Assembly (NCBI GenBank): GCA_012728835.1
Contig: JAAYEJ010000045.1
Location: 1 to 36,474 of the forward strand
Length of the DNA: 36,474 bases
Direction: 5' to 3'
Origin: Candidatus Brocadiaceae bacterium
GTDB taxonomy: Bacteria; Planctomycetota; Brocadiia; SM23-32
The notes beneath the pieces were generated by a model. The model saw only the letters and a list, made by a program, of their open reading frames with translations. It was not told where the DNA came from and did no database searches. Of this stretch, positions 8,498 through 36,286 are shown piece after piece. A program made the translations under genes and the position numbers. Position 1 is the first letter of the stretch; every line of letters begins with the position of its first letter.

Positions 8498-9670
8498 TCA
8501 GTGCAGGAACAGGCGCAGGCCCGAGTGAACCATGACCATGCCGTACTGGTCGGCCGCGGCCGTTACGGCGTCATCGCGCAGGGAGCCGCCCGCCTGCAGG
8601 ACGTAGCGGACGTTCGAGCGGCTGGCGCGGTCGACGGTGTCGCGGAACGGGATGAAGGCGTCCGAACTCAGGCAGATGCCGTCGAACTGCGCCACCCAGT
8701 CGGCGCGCTCCTCCCGGGTGAGGGGCCGGGGCATCTCGGTCAGTTGCGGCAGCATGGCGAACTTCTCGGCGTCGGCCAGCTCGTCCCAGAGCAGAAAGGA
8801 GTCGACGATGTTCGTCTTGTCGATGCGGCTCAACCCGTCCTTGAAGGGCAGGGCGAGCACGCGCGGGTGCTGTTGCAGAAGCCACTTGTCGGCCTTGTCG
8901 CAGGCCAGACGTGTGCAGTGCACGCGCGACTGCTGCCCGGCGCCCATGCCGATGACCTGCCCGTCGTAGGCCACGCAGATCGAGTTCGACTGCGTGTACT
9001 TGAGCGCGATGGTGGCCACCAGGAGCGTCTGGACGGCCGCCTCCGGGATGTCCTTCTTCGCGCTCACCACGTCGCGGATGATGCTGCGGTCGATCCGGGC
9101 GTTGTTGCGCTCCTGTTGCAGGCGGAAGCCGAACGCGTCGCGGTCTTCCACCGCTGGAGGTTCGTAGTCGGCGTCGATCTCGAGCAGCAGGTACTTCCCG
9201 TCCCGTTTGCCCTTCAGTATCTTCAGCGCTTCGGGCGTGTAGCCGGGCGCGATGAAGGCGTCGCTGACCTCGCGGCGGATCAGGCGCGCCAGGGATTCGT
9301 CCACCACGTCGCTGGCTGCGCCGACGTCGCCGAACGAGCACATCCGGTCGCCGCCGCGCGCGCGGGCATAGGCGGTGGCCACGGGCGAGAGGTCCTCTTC
9401 GGGGATCATCTGCGATGCGCGGAACGCGTCCGAGATCGGGCGGGCGACGGCCGCGCCGGCCGGGCTGACGTGCTTGAACGATGCGGCGCCCGGCAGGCCG
9501 GTGGCCGCCTTCAGCTCACGGGCGAGCTGCCAGGCCGCCAGCGCGTCCAGGATGTTGATGTAGCCGGGCGCGCCGCTGACGACGCGCAGGGGCGACGGCT
9601 CCTGCCCGATGACCAGACGGGCGGCGCCCTGGTGCGGGTTGCAGCCGTACCTCAGTGTGATCTCGCTCAT
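8498..9670 (-). CDS. purH: stand-alone AICAR transformylase (PurH C-terminal domain only)
   Basis: The 390-residue product matches only the transformylase half of PurH, which formylates AICAR with 10-formyl-tetrahydrofolate in purine synthesis. It begins MSEITLRYGCNPHQG, the usual domain start, and carries the catalytic Lys-His pair in SFKHVSPAG (K66-H67), NNARIDRS, and SNSICVAYDGQVIGMGAGQQSR. The IMP cyclohydrolase domain that normally precedes it is absent, and the upstream sequence is a promoter and leader, so it has not been lost to a frameshift here. IMP cyclohydrolase must be encoded elsewhere. The ATG at 9670 is preferred over an in-frame GTG at 9691 because AGAGGA lies at the right distance from it. 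It is the first gene of the operon with dapF-like and rsmA. Confidence 0.9.
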   Translation of the reverse strand: MSEITLRYGCNPHQGAARLVIGQEPSPLRVVSGAPGYINILDALAAWQLARELKAATGLPGAASFKHVSPAGAAVARPISDAFRASQMIPEEDLSPVATAYARARGGDRMCSFGDVGAASDVVDESLARLIRREVSDAFIAPGYTPEALKILKGKRDGKYLLLEIDADYEPPAVEDRDAFGFRLQQERNNARIDRSIIRDVVSAKKDIPEAAVQTLLVATIALKYTQSNSICVAYDGQVIGMGAGQQSRVHCTRLACDKADKWLLQQHPRVLALPFKDGLSRIDKTNIVDSFLLWDELADAEKFAMLPQLTEMPRPLTREERADWVAQFDGICLSSDAFIPFRDTVDRASRSNVRYVLQAGGSLRDDAVTAAADQYGMVMVHSGLRLFLH

Positions 9671-9690
9671 CCCTGCGTCCTCTGCTGTCA

Positions 9691-9731
9691 CGGGTTCTGC
9701 GGCCTGCGAGGGCAGGCCCGGGGCGAACCCG
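9691..9731 (-). promoter_or_regulatory. nested hairpin in the 5' leader of the AICAR transformylase operon
   Basis: A perfect 7-bp stem (GGCCTGC 9701-9707 with GCAGGCC 9712-9718, 4-base loop) sits inside an outer 6-bp stem (CGGGTT 9691-9696 with AACCCG 9726-9731). The predicted transcript start is near 9726, so the structure would fill most of the leader just ahead of the ribosome-binding site. It does not resemble a purine riboswitch. Confidence 0.35.
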
Positions 9732-21437: not shown

Positions 21438-21839
21438 TCAGCGCGTCCTCTCGGCGGACTCGCCGTCACGACGGTCCAGTTCCCTGCGGATTCCGCGCAG
21501 TTCCCTCCGGTTCAACGGCATGTGTCGGATCACGTGGCCCAGCAGGGCGGGGACCGAACAGGCGAAGAAACGGTCGGCCAGGTCCTTGATGGCCTGTTCG
21601 GCGCCCTCCTCGCGTGTGACCGTCGGGCGGTACACCACCGAACGGCCCCGGCGCTCGTCGGCCAGCAGGCCCTTCTGGTGCAGCACCCGCATGACCATCA
21701 GGACGGTGTTGTAGGCTCGCGGGGCGGTCCGGCGGAGCTGTTCGTGCACCTGCCGCGTGGTCGCCTCGGACAGCTCCCACACCACGTTCATCACGGCCGC
21801 TTCCAGAGGCGTCAGTGTGCACGTCTCGGCCCTGCCCAT
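21438..21839 (-). CDS. BlaI/MecI family transcriptional repressor
   Basis: The 133-residue product has the winged-helix domain of BlaI/MecI repressors: LTPLEAAVMNVVWEL at 8-22, TTRQVHEQL as the second helix, AYNTVLMVMRVLHQKGLL as recognition helix and wing, and VYRPTVTREE leading to a C-terminal dimerisation region. Classical relatives repress beta-lactam resistance genes and are inactivated by a BlaR1-type membrane protease, but no such gene is adjacent. The only gene in its likely operon is the phosphodiesterase 20 bases downstream. The ATG at 21839 has GGGAG eight bases upstream. It is divergent from the QTMAN-like gene. Confidence 0.88.
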   Translation of the reverse strand: MGRAETCTLTPLEAAVMNVVWELSEATTRQVHEQLRRTAPRAYNTVLMVMRVLHQKGLLADERRGRSVVYRPTVTREEGAEQAIKDLADRFFACSVPALLGHVIRHMPLNRRELRGIRRELDRRDGESAERTR

Positions 21840-21870
21840 CTGCTCGGCTCCCGTGGCTTCAGAGACGTTC

Positions 21871-21899
21871 AGCCTACACGGCCCGGGCCGGCCATTCAA
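21871..21899 (-). promoter_or_regulatory. candidate promoter of the BlaI-type repressor gene
   Basis: On the minus strand TTGAAT (21899-21894) is followed after 17 bases by TAGGCT (21876-21871), 32 bases ahead of the start codon. The -10 box is weak. No convincing TACA/TGTA-type BlaI operator is visible. Confidence 0.35.
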
Positions 21900-21925
21900 C
21901 CGCCGGTCCGTTCGCCGGGACGGTC

Positions 21926-21954
21926 TTGCGCGCATGGGCGCCCTTCCCTACAAT
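21926..21954 (+). promoter_or_regulatory. candidate promoter of the QTMAN-like and BatA-like run
   Basis: TTGCGC (21926-21931) is followed after 17 bases by TACAAT (21949-21954), which is one base from the -10 consensus. The start codon of the QTMAN-like gene lies 52 bases downstream. Confidence 0.5.
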
Positions 21955-22005
21955 GCCGTCGGGCGTCGTTTCGGCCCCGTATTCTCACGCGGATGGGGAG
22001 CATCG

Positions 22006-23127
22006 ATGGCGCGCGTGCTGGCCCTGGAGCCATACTACGGGGGGTCCCATCAGGCGTTTCTGGACGGATACCGCCGCCGCAGCCGCCACGCGATCGACCT
22101 GCTCACCATGAGCGCGCGCAAGTGGAAGTGGCGCATGCGCGGCGCGGCGCTGTTCCTGCACGACGAACTGCGCGTGCACAAACGACCATTCGACATACTG
22201 CTCGTCAGCGACTTCCTGGACCTCGCCGCGCTCATGGGGATGGCGCCGCGCCTGCCGCCCGAGACGGCCACGGTGGCCTACTTCCACGAGAACCAGCTCA
22301 CCTACCCCGTCCCGTCGGAGCAGGACCGCGATTACCAGTTCGGATTCACGAACATCACGACCTGCCTGGCCGCCGACCGCGTGCTGTTCAACTCGCGCCA
22401 CCACCGGGACAGCTTCCTGGGGGCCGCCCGCGCGCTCCTGGGCCGCATGCCGGACTACGTGCCGCGCCGCGCGGTCGAGACGATCGCCCGCCGGTCGCAG
22501 GTGGTGCCCGTCGGCGTGGAACTGGCCGACATCGACGCGCAGCGGCCGGCGGCCGAGGCGCGCAGCGGCCCCCTCACCGTCCTGTGGAACCACCGCTGGG
22601 AGTACGACAAGGGCGCCGAGGAGTTCTTCGACGTGATGTGCGAACTCCAGGCGGAGGGCTATGACTTCCGCCTGGCCGTGACGGGGCAGCAGTTCCGCAC
22701 CGCGCCCGCCGTGTTCGAGGCGGCCCGCCGGGCACTGGCCCCGCGCATCCGCCGGTTCGGCTACGTCGAAGGCCGGGGGGAGTACTGCCGCCTGCTCCTG
22801 GAGAGCGACCTGGTGGTCTCGACGGCCGAGCAGGAGTTCTTCGGCATCTCCGTCGTCGAGGCCGTCTACGCCGGCTGCGTGCCCGTGCTGCCCAACCGCC
22901 TGAGCTACCCCGAACTGCTGCCCGAGAGCCGCCACGCGCAGTGCCTGTACGAAGGCCGCGACGGCCTCAAGGCGCGGCTCGTCCGCTGGCTGGAGCATCC
23001 GGAGCAGGCGCGCGCGCTGAACCTGAGCGCCGACGTGGCCCGGTTCGGCTGGGAGCACGTGGCGCCGATGCTGGACGACGTCATCGACCAGGTCTCCGAG
23101 GCCCGGCGGGAGGACGGCCATGGTTGA
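22006..23127 (+). CDS. bacterial homologue of tRNA-queuosine mannosyltransferase (QTMAN/GTDC1, DUF3524)
   Basis: The 373-residue GT-B glycosyltransferase matches the vertebrate GTDC1/QTMAN protein across its length. Shared blocks are EPYYGGSH at 8-15, SARKWKWR near 36-43, FHENQLTYP at 93-101, the stretch CLAADRVLFNS at 120-130, PHRWE-type WNHRWEYDKG, and the nucleotide-sugar motif EQEFFGISVVEAVYAGC. The animal enzyme adds mannose to queuosine 34 of tRNA-Asp; the bacterial protein lacks the long insertion before the second domain. By homology it may glycosylate a queuosine-type base or another acceptor, which is inference. The ATG at 22006 has GGGGAG upstream. Its last eight bases overlap the start of the BatA-like gene, so the two are translationally coupled. 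Confidence 0.82.
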   Translation: MARVLALEPYYGGSHQAFLDGYRRRSRHAIDLLTMSARKWKWRMRGAALFLHDELRVHKRPFDILLVSDFLDLAALMGMAPRLPPETATVAYFHENQLTYPVPSEQDRDYQFGFTNITTCLAADRVLFNSRHHRDSFLGAARALLGRMPDYVPRRAVETIARRSQVVPVGVELADIDAQRPAAEARSGPLTVLWNHRWEYDKGAEEFFDVMCELQAEGYDFRLAVTGQQFRTAPAVFEAARRALAPRIRRFGYVEGRGEYCRLLLESDLVVSTAEQEFFGISVVEAVYAGCVPVLPNRLSYPELLPESRHAQCLYEGRDGLKARLVRWLEHPEQARALNLSADVARFGWEHVAPMLDDVIDQVSEARREDGHG

Positions 23128-25366
23128 GTTCGCCCACCCCGCCCTGCTTTGGGCGCTGCCGGCGGCCGCCCTGCCCGTGCTGATCCACCTGCTGAACCGG
23201 CGTCGCTATCGCCGCGTGCCCTGGGCGGCCATGGCGCACCTTCTGACCGCCGAACACCGCAGCCGGCGGCGCGTGCGCGTGCAGAACGTCCTCGTCCTGG
23301 CGCTGCGCGCGGCCGCCGTCGCCCTGCTGGTGCTGCTGTTTGCGCGGCCGGCCGTGGCGGGGCGTCGCCCGGCCGGCACGGCGGCCGGCGATGGCCGCGT
23401 GGTGCTCCTGCTGGACGATTCGGCCGGCATGGGGCGGCTCGCCGCCGGCACGACGGCCTTCGAGCGGGCCGTGGACACGGCGGCGGCCATGGCGGACGGC
23501 CTGGCCGGGGGTGGGGCGGGCCTGACGGCGTTTGTGGCGAGCGAGGAGGAACCCTTCTTCGAGGCGGCCCCGATGGACGCCGAGAAGGCCCGGGAGTTCC
23601 GCACGCGTGCACGTGCACGGACGCCCGTGGCCGTGCCGTTCGACCCCGCCGCCCGCCTGCGCGCCCTTGCAAAGAGCGCCGCCGGGCCGGGCGACGTCCG
23701 CTTCATCGTCGCGAGCGACCTGCAGGCCGCCGACTGGGGCGAGGGGGCGGTACGGCCGGAGGCGGCCGAGGCGCTGCGGGCGCTCCAGGCGCGCGGGCCG
23801 GTCTGGGTCTGGGACGTCGGCGCGGCCGGGCGCGCGGGCGTGCGCGTGGCGGAGATCCTCGACGACGGGCGGCCCGTCTACGCGCGAGCGGCGACCGTGC
23901 TGCGGGTGGTCATCGAGAACGAATCCGACGCGGACCGCCCGGCCGGTCCGGTGGAGGTGCGGGTCGACGGCCGCGTCCTTCCGTCCGTCCCGGGGCCGGC
24001 CGTCCCCGCCGGGCAGCGCCGCCAGGCCGCCGTCCAGGTCTACCTGGAGGAGCCGGGCTTCCACCGGATCGAGGCGGCCGTCGAGGGAGGCGACGACTTC
24101 CCCGCCGACGACCGCCGCACGTTCGCCTTCGAAGCGGTCGAGTCCCTGCCCGTGCTGGTCGTCGAGGGCGGGCTGGCCGCCCGGCCGGCGGATGCGGCCG
24201 GCTACTACCTGCGGGCGGCGCTGCAGCCGAGCGACGGCGCCGGGCCGGGGCTGCGGGTGACCGGCCGCCCGGCGCAGACGGGGCCTCCCGACGACCTGGA
24301 CCGCTACGCGGCCGTCTTCCTGTGCGGCGTGCGTTCGCCGGACGGCTGGCTGGACGCCCTGCGGGGCTACGTGGGCGGCGGCGGGCGGCTGGTCGTCTTC
24401 CTGGACGATGAGGCCGGTGCCGACGCCTACGCGCAGGGCCTGCTCGGACCGGACGGCCTGCTGCCCTGCCGCCCGGGCGAACTCGTGCGCGCGCGGGCCG
24501 ACGGCGTCCACCGGCTGGCCCATCTGGAGTTCGCGGATCCCCTCCTGCGCCCGTTTCCAGATTGGGGAATGCTCTTCCACATGGTGGAATTCCGGGCGTT
24601 CCGCCGCGTCGAGCCGTTGGGGGAGACGCGGGTCCTGGCACGGTTCGACGACGCGGCGGCGTCGCCCGCGCTGCTGGCCGGTCGGTTCGGCCGCGGCGAG
24701 GTGGTCCTGCTGCCCTTCACGGCGAACGACGCGTGGACGGACTGGCCGCGCTCGGAGGCCGGGCGGGTCACGTACGTGGCGCTGATGCACTGGCTGGCGG
24801 AGCAGGGGGCGGCCGGTGCGCGCCGGCGGGGATATGGGCTGGACCTGCCGGCGGGCGCGCGCCTGGAGTTCCCGCTCGACCCCGCGCGCTTCCGCACGCA
24901 GGCGACCCTGCGCGGGCCGGATGCCGCGGCCGGCGGAGCGGCCGCGTCCGACGGAGCGGCCGCGTCCGAGCGCCTGCAGGCGCGCTCACTGCCCGATCGA
25001 GGCGGGCTCTGGCTGGCCGGCGGGCCGCTGCGGCGTGCGGGCTTCCATGAACTGCGCCTGACGGCCCTGGACGGCGGCGAGACGAGCGTCCACTTCGCCG
25101 TCCACCTGCCCGATCGCGAGCGCCTGCCGGCGCGCATCGCCAGGGACGCGCTGGAGGACGCGGCCGGCGACGCCGGGCGGCTGCACGTGACGGGGTACGA
25201 GGCGGTCGGCATGCGGGCGTGGGCGGGCGCGGCGCGGCCGGTCTGGCCGTACCTGGCCGGCGTCGTCCTGGCCGTCCTGCTGGTCGAGAGCCTGCTGGCG
25301 TGGCGGTTCGGCAACCCACGGGCGGGGCGCCCGGAGCGGCCGGCCCGCCGGGGAGGGGCGCCATGA
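23120..25366 (+). CDS. BatA-type membrane protein with degenerate VWA domain
   Basis: This 748-residue protein begins with the aerotolerance-regulator (BatA) N-terminal pattern: FAHPALLWALPAAALPVLIHLLNRRRYRRVPWAAM, spanning two short membrane segments, followed by a second helix at about 56-76. A von Willebrand A-like domain follows (about 92-220). Its metal site reads D99-x-S101-x-G103, so the last serine of the usual DxSxS is missing and metal binding is doubtful. A beta-rich middle, a Rossmann-like segment (about 335-430) and a final membrane helix near 715-735 complete it. Relatives occur with MoxR ATPase and DUF58 genes and are thought to act in envelope or chaperone functions; those partners are not adjacent here. 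Confidence 0.8.
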   Translation: MVEFAHPALLWALPAAALPVLIHLLNRRRYRRVPWAAMAHLLTAEHRSRRRVRVQNVLVLALRAAAVALLVLLFARPAVAGRRPAGTAAGDGRVVLLLDDSAGMGRLAAGTTAFERAVDTAAAMADGLAGGGAGLTAFVASEEEPFFEAAPMDAEKAREFRTRARARTPVAVPFDPAARLRALAKSAAGPGDVRFIVASDLQAADWGEGAVRPEAAEALRALQARGPVWVWDVGAAGRAGVRVAEILDDGRPVYARAATVLRVVIENESDADRPAGPVEVRVDGRVLPSVPGPAVPAGQRRQAAVQVYLEEPGFHRIEAAVEGGDDFPADDRRTFAFEAVESLPVLVVEGGLAARPADAAGYYLRAALQPSDGAGPGLRVTGRPAQTGPPDDLDRYAAVFLCGVRSPDGWLDALRGYVGGGGRLVVFLDDEAGADAYAQGLLGPDGLLPCRPGELVRARADGVHRLAHLEFADPLLRPFPDWGMLFHMVEFRAFRRVEPLGETRVLARFDDAAASPALLAGRFGRGEVVLLPFTANDAWTDWPRSEAGRVTYVALMHWLAEQGAAGARRRGYGLDLPAGARLEFPLDPARFRTQATLRGPDAAAGGAAASDGAAASERLQARSLPDRGGLWLAGGPLRRAGFHELRLTALDGGETSVHFAVHLPDRERLPARIARDALEDAAGDAGRLHVTGYEAVGMRAWAGAARPVWPYLAGVVLAVLLVESLLAWRFGNPRAGRPERPARRGGAP

Positions 25367-33162: not shown

Positions 33163-33627
33163 ATGGCCGTCATCACGCGAGAGACCGATTACGCACTGCG
33201 CGCGCTCCTGGCTCTGGCCGGCGCCGACGAGTTCGTGGCCGTGACCGTGCTGGCACAGCAGCAGGGCGTCCCGGTGGTGTTCCTGCGCAAGATCATGCAG
33301 CGGCTCCATCGGGCGGGCGTCGTGGAGAGCCGGCAGGGGCCGTTCGGCGGCTACCGGCTGGCGGTGCCGGCCGACGCGGTGAGCCTGCTGGACGTGGTGG
33401 AGGCCGTGCAGGGCCCGCTGGTGATGAACGAGTGCTTCCATGCGCCGGACCTGTGCGATCGCGCGCCCGACTGCCCCGTGCGCAGGTGCCTGCAGGAGCT
33501 GCAGTCGTTGCTGCAGGAGCGGCTGTCTGCGCTGACCGTGGGCGGGGTGGCCGGCGGCGCGTGCGGCCGGGCTCCGTGCCCGAAGGCCGGGGCGTCTGCT
33601 CTGGCCGATGAACCGAAGGAACGCTAA
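33163..33627 (+). CDS. Rrf2 family regulator with Fe-S cysteines (NsrR/IscR-like)
   Basis: The 154-residue protein has the Rrf2 winged helix: ITRETDYALRALLALA at the N-terminus, VPVVFLRKIMQRLHRAGVVES as the recognition part and GPFGGYRLA as the wing. Three cysteines, C91, C98 and C104 (x6 and x5 spacing), lie where IscR and NsrR hold their Fe-S cluster. An extra C109 and a Cys-rich tail (GACGRAPCP) follow. Cluster-bearing Rrf2 proteins sense nitric oxide, oxygen or Fe-S status and release DNA when the cluster is damaged. The gene heads a run of Fe-S repair, flavodiiron and hybrid-cluster genes, so it most likely senses NO. Its promoter carries an overlapping dyad, which implies autoregulation. 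Confidence 0.9.
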   Translation: MAVITRETDYALRALLALAGADEFVAVTVLAQQQGVPVVFLRKIMQRLHRAGVVESRQGPFGGYRLAVPADAVSLLDVVEAVQGPLVMNECFHAPDLCDRAPDCPVRRCLQELQSLLQERLSALTVGGVAGGACGRAPCPKAGASALADEPKER

Positions 33628-33628
33628 G

Positions 33629-33964
33629 ATGGCTCAGAGACAGATCGTCGAGATCGCCGAAGAGGAGTGCGCCTGCCTGGGGGCCTGTCCGCGGGGGGCC
33701 ATCCGGATCATCACCCGGGAGGCGGCGGAGTTCGACGAGGAGGCGGCGGGACTGGGGGTCTCGTCCCCCGGCGACGCCGTGCACACGTGTCCGGGGGCGG
33801 CGCCGTTCTTCGAGGGGGCGGACCTGCTGATCGCGGCCGACTGCGTCCCATTCGCTCTGCCGGACTTCCACAGCCGGGTCCTGCGCGGGCGCCGTGAAGG
33901 GCAGGCGCCGCGTGGACGCGCCGTCGCAGAGTCTCGATCTGCGACGGCGCAGGGAGGGCAATGA
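33629..33964 (+). CDS. reduced ferredoxin-like ORF, possibly degenerate
   Basis: The 111-residue ORF starts MAQRQIVEIAEEEC and continues ACLGACPRGAIRII with only C14, C16 and C20, not the C-x2-C-x2-C-x3-C of a 4Fe-4S ferredoxin. Proteins often found beside hcp have two clusters and a C-terminal domain containing a block like FFEGADLLIAADCVPFAL followed by a GCPKLD motif. Here the second-cluster and AADC blocks are kept, but the first cluster, a middle segment and the CPKLD end appear missing, as if by in-frame deletions and a lost tail. This comparison is from memory of the family. The ORF may be a pseudogene or an assembly collapse. It starts one base after the Rrf2 stop and its end overlaps the cupin start. 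Confidence 0.5.
   Translation: MAQRQIVEIAEEECACLGACPRGAIRIITREAAEFDEEAAGLGVSSPGDAVHTCPGAAPFFEGADLLIAADCVPFALPDFHSRVLRGRREGQAPRGRAVAESRSATAQGGQ
33918..33950 (+). promoter_or_regulatory. perfect 13-bp hairpin just before the cupin ribosome-binding site
   Basis: GCGCCGTCGCAGA (33918-33930) and its exact complement (33938-33950) enclose a 7-base loop. The stem ends directly at AGGGAGG (33951-33957), the cupin Shine-Dalgarno sequence. There is no T run, so it is not a typical terminator; it could affect cupin translation or mRNA stability between the operon's segments. Confidence 0.5.
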
Positions 33965-34293
33965 TGAAGATCGTGACATCCGAACAGGTAAGTCCTTTCC
34001 AGAATGCACACGGTGTGCTGGCCCGCCGTCTGCACGACACCGAGCACGTGCAGGTGGTCCAGATCGACCTGGAGCCCGGCCAGGGCCTGAAGTCGCACGT
34101 CACGCCCGTCGACGTGTTCTTCTACGTGGTCCGGGGCGACGCGACGGTGCAGATCGGGGAGGAGCGGGAGTGCGTGCCCGTGGGCAGCCTGGTGCACAGC
34201 CCGGCCGGCATCCCGCATCTTGTTGCCAACGAGGGCGAGACGCACCTGCGCTTTCTCGTCGTCAAGACGCCCAACCCGGGTGGCCGCAAATAG
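33964..34293 (+). CDS. small cupin domain protein
   Basis: The 109-residue protein is a single cupin barrel. The first cupin motif reads LKSHVTPVDVFFYVVRGDATVQIG with one histidine and an aspartate where glutamate is usual, and the second reads LVHSPAGIPHLVANEG with a histidine. This TPVDVFFYV type of cupin occurs repeatedly near nitrosative-stress and anaerobic redox genes; no enzyme activity can be assigned, and it may bind a metal or small ligand. Tandem ATGs at 33961 and 33964 both fit. I chose 33964 because AGGGAGG then lies six bases upstream instead of three. It follows the reduced ferredoxin-like ORF and precedes the Ric gene by 31 bases. Confidence 0.8.
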   Translation: MKIVTSEQVSPFQNAHGVLARRLHDTEHVQVVQIDLEPGQGLKSHVTPVDVFFYVVRGDATVQIGEERECVPVGSLVHSPAGIPHLVANEGETHLRFLVVKTPNPGGRK

Positions 34294-34324
34294 GCCGTCC
34301 CGTTCGGGCCGAGGAGGTCCTCAC

Positions 34325-35059
34325 ATGAACACCAACACCGGAAACCAGACGGTCGGCGACCTGGTGACGGAGCGGCCGGCGGTTCGGCCGGCCCTCGAAC
34401 GCTACGGCATCGACTACTGCTGCGGAGGCGACCGGCCGCTTGCGGAGGCGGCGGCCGCGGCCGGCGTGGACCTGCGCGAACTGTGCGCCGCCATGGACGC
34501 GGCCGAAGCCGACGCGCCCGAGGGCGGCCGGGACTGGTCGCAGGCCACGCTCACCGAGCTGGTCGCCCACATCGAGGGGGCGCACCATGCCTTTCTGCGG
34601 GAGGCGTTTCCCCGCATCGAGGCGCTCTTCACGGCCGTGCTGGCCGCCCATCAGGCGCGACATGGCAAGGTGCTGCGCCCGCTCCGGGAAGTGTTCGGCT
34701 CGCTGCGGACAGAGATCGAGCAGCATCTGGAGAGGGAGGAGTCGCTGCTGTTCCCCTACGTGCGAAGGCTGGAGGAATACGTCCGGGGGGGCGGTCGGCA
34801 GCCGGCGGTCGGCAGCGAGCGGATTCGCAACCCCGTGCGCGTGATGCGGCTGGAGCACGACGACGCCGGCCAGGCGCTGTCCGAGATGCGCGGCCTGACC
34901 GACGGATACAGGCTGCCCGAGGACGCGTGCCGCAGCTTCCGGGCGCTTTACGACGCCCTGCAGGAGCTGGAGCGCGACCTGCACGAGCACATCCACCTGG
35001 AGAACAACATCCTGTTCCGCAAGGCGGTCGCTCTGGACATCGCCTGCTGGGGCGTCTGA
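34325..35059 (+). CDS. ric: iron-sulfur cluster repair di-iron protein Ric (YtfE/ScdA)
   Basis: Ric proteins restore Fe-S clusters damaged by nitric oxide or peroxide and bind a di-iron centre. The 244-residue protein has the N-terminal DUF542 domain with Y31-C32-C33 in GIDYCCGGDRPL, and a C-terminal hemerythrin-like four-helix bundle. Ligand candidates are the His pairs in LVAHIEGAHHAFL, HLEREESLLFPY, RLEHDDAG and the HEHIHLENNILFRKA block. Length is typical. The ATG has GAGGAGG upstream. It lies between the cupin and the flavodiiron gene under the Rrf2 promoter, the classical setting for an NO-induced repair protein. Confidence 0.93.
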   Translation: MNTNTGNQTVGDLVTERPAVRPALERYGIDYCCGGDRPLAEAAAAAGVDLRELCAAMDAAEADAPEGGRDWSQATLTELVAHIEGAHHAFLREAFPRIEALFTAVLAAHQARHGKVLRPLREVFGSLRTEIEQHLEREESLLFPYVRRLEEYVRGGGRQPAVGSERIRNPVRVMRLEHDDAGQALSEMRGLTDGYRLPEDACRSFRALYDALQELERDLHEHIHLENNILFRKAVALDIACWGV

Positions 35060-35095
35060 GCGGCACGCACGCGGCAATCGCCGGGGAGGACGAAG

Positions 35096-36286
35096 ATGGT
35101 CGTCGAGATCAAGCCGGGGCTCTACTGGGTTGGCGTTGTGGACTGGGGGCTCACGCACTTCCACGGTCACGAGCTGAGCACGCACCGCGGCTCGTCCTAT
35201 AACGCGTATCTGATCAGGGACGAGAAGACGGTGCTGGTCGACACCGTCTGGGGCCCGTTCGCGGACCAGTTGCTCGAGAACATCCGCGAGGTCGTCGATC
35301 CGTCCGAGATCGACATCGTCGTCGCCAACCACTCGGAGGTCGACCATTCCGGCGGCCTTCCGGCCGTCATGCGCCATGCGCCGAAGGCGAAGGTCGTCGT
35401 CTCCAAGCGCGGCCTGGAGAGCGTCGAGGGGCACTTCCATCAGCCGTGGGACTTCCAGTCGGTGGGCACGGGGGACCGCATCTCCATCGGCGCCAACGAA
35501 CTGGCCTTCGTCGAGGCGCCCATGCTGCACTGGCCCGACAGCATGTTCACCTACCTGACGGGGCACAACGTCCTGATGCCGAACGACGCCTTCGGCCAGC
35601 ACTACGCGACGGCCTTCCGCTACAACGACGAAGTGGACCAGGAGGAGCTGTACGAAGAGGCGCTCAAGTACTACGTCAACATCCTGACGCCGTTCAGCAA
35701 GCTGGTCCGGCGCAAGATCGACGAGGTGCTGGCGCTGGGGCTGCCCGTGGACGTGATCGCGCCCAGCCACGGCGTCATCTGGCGCAAGGACCCGCTGCAG
35801 ATCGTGCGGAAGTACCAGGAATGGGCGGCGCAGACGCCCGAACCGCGCGCCGTCATCCTGTACGACACGATGTGGAACGGCACGCGGCGCATGGCCGAGG
35901 CGATCTCCGAGGGCCTGGCCGAGGCCGGCGTCGACAGCAAGGCCGTCCATGTGGGGCTCACGGACCGCAACGACGTGCTGGTCGACGTCTTCCGTGCGCG
36001 CACCGTGGTGGTCGGCTCGCCGACCTTCAACAACGGCGTGCTGGCCAGCCTGGCGCCGATCCTGGAGGATCTGCGGGGCCTGAAGTTCCAGAACAAGATC
36101 GGCGCGGCCTTCGGCAGCTACGGCTGGAGCGGCGAGTCGATCGGGCTCATCGAGGAGCATCTGCGCCGGTGCGGGATCCCGCTCGTGCGGGAGGGACTTC
36201 GCTGCAAGTGGCAGCCGCGCGCTGAGGACCTGGAGGCGTGCCGCGCCTTTGGCAGGGAACTGGCCGACGCAACGAAGAAGGCCTGA
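35096..36286 (+). CDS. fprA: flavodiiron protein (A-type flavoprotein, NO/O2 reductase)
   Basis: The 396-residue protein reduces nitric oxide to nitrous oxide or oxygen to water. Its N-terminal metallo-beta-lactamase-like domain (1-245) has the full di-iron set: H79-x-E81-x-D83-H84 in [11 protein letters not shown]145 in [10 protein letters not shown]164 in NDAFGQH and H225 in APSHGVIWR. The C-terminal flavodoxin domain (about 250-396) begins [19 protein letters not shown], the FMN phosphate loop, and includes GSYGWSGES. There is no rubredoxin fusion, so a separate electron donor is needed. GGGGAGGA lies five bases before the ATG. It sits between Ric and hcp, strongly supporting a role in NO defence. 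Confidence 0.95.

Follow-up and report, generated by a model that had tools for sequence, protein, structure and literature searches.

The window analysed here is a stretch of 36,474 nucleotides from a Candidatus Brocadiaceae bacterium of the phylum Planctomycetota (contig JAAYEJ010000045.1). It contains a gene for a predicted glycosyltransferase, lying between a divergent repressor gene and a membrane protein gene on the same strand. The features considered are as follows.

21438 to 21935, reverse strand: gene for a BlaI/CopY-type repressor (PF03965, 98.7 bits), a neighbour only
22006 to 23127, forward strand: gene for a QTMAN-family GT4 glycosyltransferase of 373 residues (PF12038 and PF00534)
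22012 to 22518, forward strand: QTMAN_N domain, with invariant S14, H15, W40, W42, R43, HExQ (94-97) and N129
22531 to 23019, forward strand: C-terminal GT4 domain (residues 176-338), with invariant R197, W198, E199 and K202 and an EX7E motif
23120 to 25366, forward strand: gene for a BatA-type membrane protein of 748 residues (PF07584, TIGR02226)

The QTMAN gene runs from an ATG at 22006-22008 to a TGA at 23125-23127, has the sequence GGGGAG at about 21995-22000 ahead of its start, and begins 70 bases from the repressor gene. Elsewhere in the window, genes for an Rrf2 regulator, a ScdA_N/hemerythrin protein and an ODP-type metallo-beta-lactamase/flavodoxin protein stand in a row at 33163-36286, in what resembles a cluster for nitric-oxide or oxygen stress, and the AICARFT/IMPCHase bienzyme model is matched, from position 76 onwards, by a 397-residue protein encoded at 8498-9691 (reverse strand).

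The N-terminal half of the protein matches PF12038 (QTMAN_N), named by Pfam as the N-terminal domain of tRNA-queuosine alpha-mannosyltransferase, at 209 bits (E 5.2e-62) over the whole model (1-168 of 168), where the gathering score is 25 bits. The likeness to vertebrate QTMAN (GTDC1) on which the original prediction was built is thus confirmed, through a curated family model rather than by residue-by-residue alignment. Its architecture, a complete QTMAN_N domain with a GT4 domain after it, is that of the animal enzyme. PF00534 (GT4), in the C-terminal half, gave the highest score of the general glycosyltransferase families (49.5 bits). Against the NCBIfam equivalogs of general GT4 enzymes (EpsE, HpsP, BshA and others) it scored at most 32 bits, with cut-offs of at least 259, and its best match to a polysaccharide-type equivalog reached 31.9 bits against a cut-off of 400. 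These profiles place the protein in the QTMAN family as a true bacterial member of full length. Residues S14, H15, W40, W42, R43, H94, E95, Q97 and N129 are invariant across an alignment of the phylum, as are R197, W198, E199, K202 and E285; the other glutamate of the EX7E motif, E277, is nearly invariant. This pattern fits a retaining GT4 donor site joined to a family-specific acceptor domain.

An AlphaFold2 model of the protein (mean pLDDT 94.8, pTM 0.92) predicts with confidence a GT-B fold of the GT4 type, and so the kind of enzyme rather than its acceptor. The best solved structures in a fold search were GT-B, GT4-like enzymes, mostly at TM 0.6-0.7 and 12-20% identity. They included PimA with GDP-mannose (2gej), which was also found by profile search. 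Identifying the acceptor in this way was abandoned, as such generic GT4 enzymes do not tell it. A sequence search of the PDB returned no relative of QTMAN_N, the GT4 half alone being matched. PimA and the other GT4 enzymes share with the protein the GT-B fold, the EX7E motif and the R/K donor-site residues, but differ in overall sequence and have acceptor domains that are unrelated by Pfam; unlike the genes of such enzymes, the gene studied here lies outside glycolipid gene clusters.

The original prediction had treated a full-length bacterial relative as exceptional, which it is not. When species genomes were scanned once with 27 aligned members from the phylum as query, at least 577 relatives were confirmed, and the best 80 of these come, by title, from at least 10 bacterial phyla, the titles including Planctomycetota, Chloroflexota, Zixibacteria, Desulfobacterota/Thermodesulfobacteriota, Spirochaetota, Bacteroidota, Myxococcota, Actinomycetota, Nitrospirota, KSB1 and TA06. 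Within Planctomycetota, QTMAN is present in 38 of 199 sampled genomes, and it is absent from the 10 sampled members of the window's own class. Laboratory E. coli, a queuosine-containing bacterium, gave no QTMAN_N match. The closest relatives are up to 50% identical over 362 columns. A tree of 109 sequences groups the protein with five other planctomycete sequences (SH-aLRT 95) and not, as the prediction had allowed might happen, among unrelated GT-B enzymes; nothing in it marks the protein as stray or unrelated. A phage origin was rejected, since 2.9 million viral contigs yielded one partial match at 30% identity. One single-contig genome (G127:C1:1254105-1254603) has its QTMAN_N match in two overlapping pieces whose frame lengths differ, possibly a frameshifted copy.

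Gene neighbourhoods were compared at 80 named loci and 29 loci of the phylum. Clustering found no queuosine, BatA or glycan gene that recurs among the 80 loci: recurrent polysaccharide or glycolipid genes beside QTMAN were not found there, and no queuosine gene adjoins QTMAN in about 110 loci. Flanks are short at the loci of the phylum and at part of the named ones, and the search for neighbours at these 110 loci reaches the immediate neighbours only.

Absence of any queuosine pathway from the genome had been named as evidence that would speak against the prediction; queA, tgt and queH were all found. The queA and tgt genes are adjacent on contig 61, in the order queA-tgt-yajC, with both products above the NCBIfam equivalog cut-offs, and queH follows ruvA-ruvB on contig 29. 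Of the genes proposed for checking, tgt, queA and queG, the first two are present and queG is absent from the genome. The TGT pocket reads GGVSVG, six residues including a valine, like the preQ1-type GGLAVG. With queA, tgt and queH, the organism should make true queuosine, which would be available to the enzyme as it is in animals, the bacterium making its own. Two matches to the GluQRS model TIGR03838 were found in the genome, neither over the cut-off of 276.7 bits, and both are likely GluRS. On contig 19 there is a second TGT-like gene (L002:1441-2385, reverse strand), which scores 211 bits against archaeal TgtA and 70 bits against bacterial Tgt, below both cut-offs. Directly after it (L002:546-1448, reverse strand) lies a homologue of FmrO/Rmt-like 16S rRNA G1405 methyltransferases that scores far under the cut-offs for resistance genes; together the two genes suggest a further, distinct RNA modification.

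A family acting on queuosine should have carriers with a supply of it, and co-occurrence with QueA was compared on that basis. In Planctomycetota, QueA is found in 36 of 38 QTMAN carriers and 146 of 161 non-carriers (p 0.54; this and the other p values ignore shared ancestry, and genomes within one phylum are not independent), so the association is uninformative there and not above background. Canonical QueA, defined by us as a best E below 1e-80, occurs in 10 of 10 actinomycetotal carriers against 95 of 188 non-carriers (p 0.002), or at p 0.03 if any QueA-like match is counted. Chloroflexota show the reverse trend, with QueA in 6 of 18 carriers and 130 of 183 non-carriers (p 0.0025). The samples of Actinomycetota and Chloroflexota also hold a second, clearly weaker QueA-like class (about 215-277 bits), which stands by itself in many large genomes, accompanies canonical QueA in others, and may not be a queuosine enzyme. 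Among named carriers from many phyla, most of them metagenome-assembled genomes of unknown completeness, 45 of 50 have QueA; Geomonas paludis and Flavilitoribacter nigricans each have the QTMAN gene together with QueA. One planctomycete without QueA (G077) has TGT in its genome, and one carrier (G114, 81% complete) has neither QueA nor TGT.

The 12 chloroflexotal carriers without QueA (G469, G497, G506, G531, G533, G539, G563, G573, G579, G586, G610 and G642) could still have queuosine as a substrate if they salvage queuine. Queuine-salvaging TGTs typically read GG[LS][AS]G where the preQ1 type reads GGLAVG, and the valine of the latter is proposed to hinder queuine (PMC11570991). In G533, of which about 1.6 Mb of a 3.6-Mb genome was read, TGT is present (TIGR00430, 490.7 bits), carries a 32-residue insertion relative to the TGT of the window's genome, and has the pocket IGGSLG, without the valine; GGSLG is a short valine-less form whose fourth residue lies outside the published pattern. 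This single pocket, from one of the 12 carriers, suggests that lineages like G533 insert ready-made queuine, as eukaryotes do.

Taken together, the protein is probably (about 0.62) a hexosyltransferase, most likely a mannosyltransferase, acting on queuosine-34 of tRNA, and its overlap with the BatA-type gene probably reflects packing. The cell would make preQ1, which TGT would insert at G34 of tRNAs with GUN anticodons; QueA and QueH, whose genes are present, would convert the inserted base to queuosine. The family-specific N-terminal domain would bind queuosine-34 tRNA, and the retaining GT-B (GT4) enzyme would transfer a hexose onto a hydroxyl of the cyclopentene of queuosine, most likely mannose from GDP-mannose by analogy with the animal enzyme. 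Lineages without QueA may obtain queuosine from salvaged queuine, as the one TGT pocket sequence suggests. This reading is favoured because the full-length QTMAN_N score far exceeds that of any general glycosyltransferase family, and because the host has queA, tgt and queH and QueA accompanies QTMAN in all actinomycetotal and most named carriers. The confident GT-B model with its matches to GT4 enzymes such as PimA, the valine-less TGT pocket of G533 and the lack of recurrent glycan genes at the 80 loci also speak for it. It is weakened by the anti-correlation of QTMAN with QueA in Chloroflexota, by the background-level association in Planctomycetota, by the genome that has QTMAN without QueA and TGT, and by the want of an adjoining queuosine gene. 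Support for queuosine glycosylation stands at the level of the family and the pathway; the sugar, the tRNA and the activity are inferred.

The enzyme might instead glycosylate another target, such as a glycolipid, a polysaccharide or a metabolite, in which case the family would be ancient and only its eukaryotic branch a tRNA enzyme. The GT4 fold is indeed common to many polysaccharide, thiol and lipid enzymes, and both the 12 Chloroflexota genomes that carry QTMAN without QueA and the lack of physical linkage to queuosine genes agree with such a role. We consider it unlikely, given the invariant WxWR and HExQ motifs in an N-terminal domain specific to the family, loci that are not glycan clusters, the association with QueA in Actinomycetota and the queuine-like TGT kept by the QueA-less G533.

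A rival of similarly low likelihood, in our view doubtful, is that queuosine-tRNA is modified with a sugar other than mannose, for example glucose, or on tRNAs other than tRNA-Asp, for example several GUN tRNAs; as a sub-case of the preferred reading, its likelihood overlaps with that given above. The sequence does not reveal the donor, and donors differ among the nearest GT4 structures, but glycosyltransferase subfamilies often retain their donor type, and the animal homologue is a mannosyltransferase on tRNA-Asp (PMC12518689). GluQRS (YadB), which already targets queuosine of tRNA-Asp, speaks for this rival through its presence in several carriers. It resembles the proposed enzyme in carrying out a bacterial queuosine hypermodification, but has an unrelated fold (a truncated GluRS) and attaches an amino acid, not a sugar. 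Four planctomycetotal QTMAN carriers (G140, G183, G196 and G094) also encode GluQRS above the curated cut-off; mutual exclusion of the two enzymes was therefore rejected, with both in at least four genomes, and the two queuosine decorations are not mutually exclusive.

The BatA-type gene starts with an ATG at 23120 and shares exactly 8 bases (23120-23127) with the QTMAN gene on the same strand, as originally described. Its label as BatA/VWA stands in part: the BatA N-terminal domain is supported (PF07584 62.5 bits, TIGR02226 66.2 bits), whereas profile search found no VWA domain at E 0.001, PF07584 being the sole family reported. The overlap had been taken to mark a meaningful coupled unit, a view that was not supported, as the pairing is not conserved in the roughly 110 loci. 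Among immediate neighbours at the 80 named and 29 phylum loci, the sole BatA homologue is a single weak match on the opposite strand (L051). In the same genome, unrelated genes overlap by 4 bases (tgt-yajC and yajC with the next gene), so the overlap needs no functional explanation; it is probably ordinary compact gene packing of genes that are not functionally linked. That the two genes form a functional unit, in which glycosylation of RNA or protein serves a membrane complex, is suggested by the same-strand overlap and is very improbable in view of the unconserved pairing, the other overlaps and the ribosome-binding-like site of its own (purine-rich GGGAGG) just upstream of the BatA-type ATG.

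Animal QTMAN is the mannosyltransferase on tRNA-Asp noted above (PMC12518689), and a 2024 review places the sugar-modified queuosines manQ and galQ in vertebrates and assigns gluQ to bacteria (PMC12710937). The open-licence literature yielded no paper on manQ or QTMAN in bacteria. By its sequence the protein belongs to a known family, and the function proposed for it is a good prediction. The wide family and a genome equipped to make queuosine turn sugar-decorated queuosine in bacteria into a testable prediction. We put it at even odds that glycosylation of queuosine in tRNA is ancient and widespread among bacteria, occurring in at least 10 phyla including queuine salvagers, and that the animal manQ enzyme branched off late from within a bacterial family. 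Should queuosine be the substrate of the bacterial relatives of QTMAN, glycosylation of tRNA would be a trait found broadly in bacteria.
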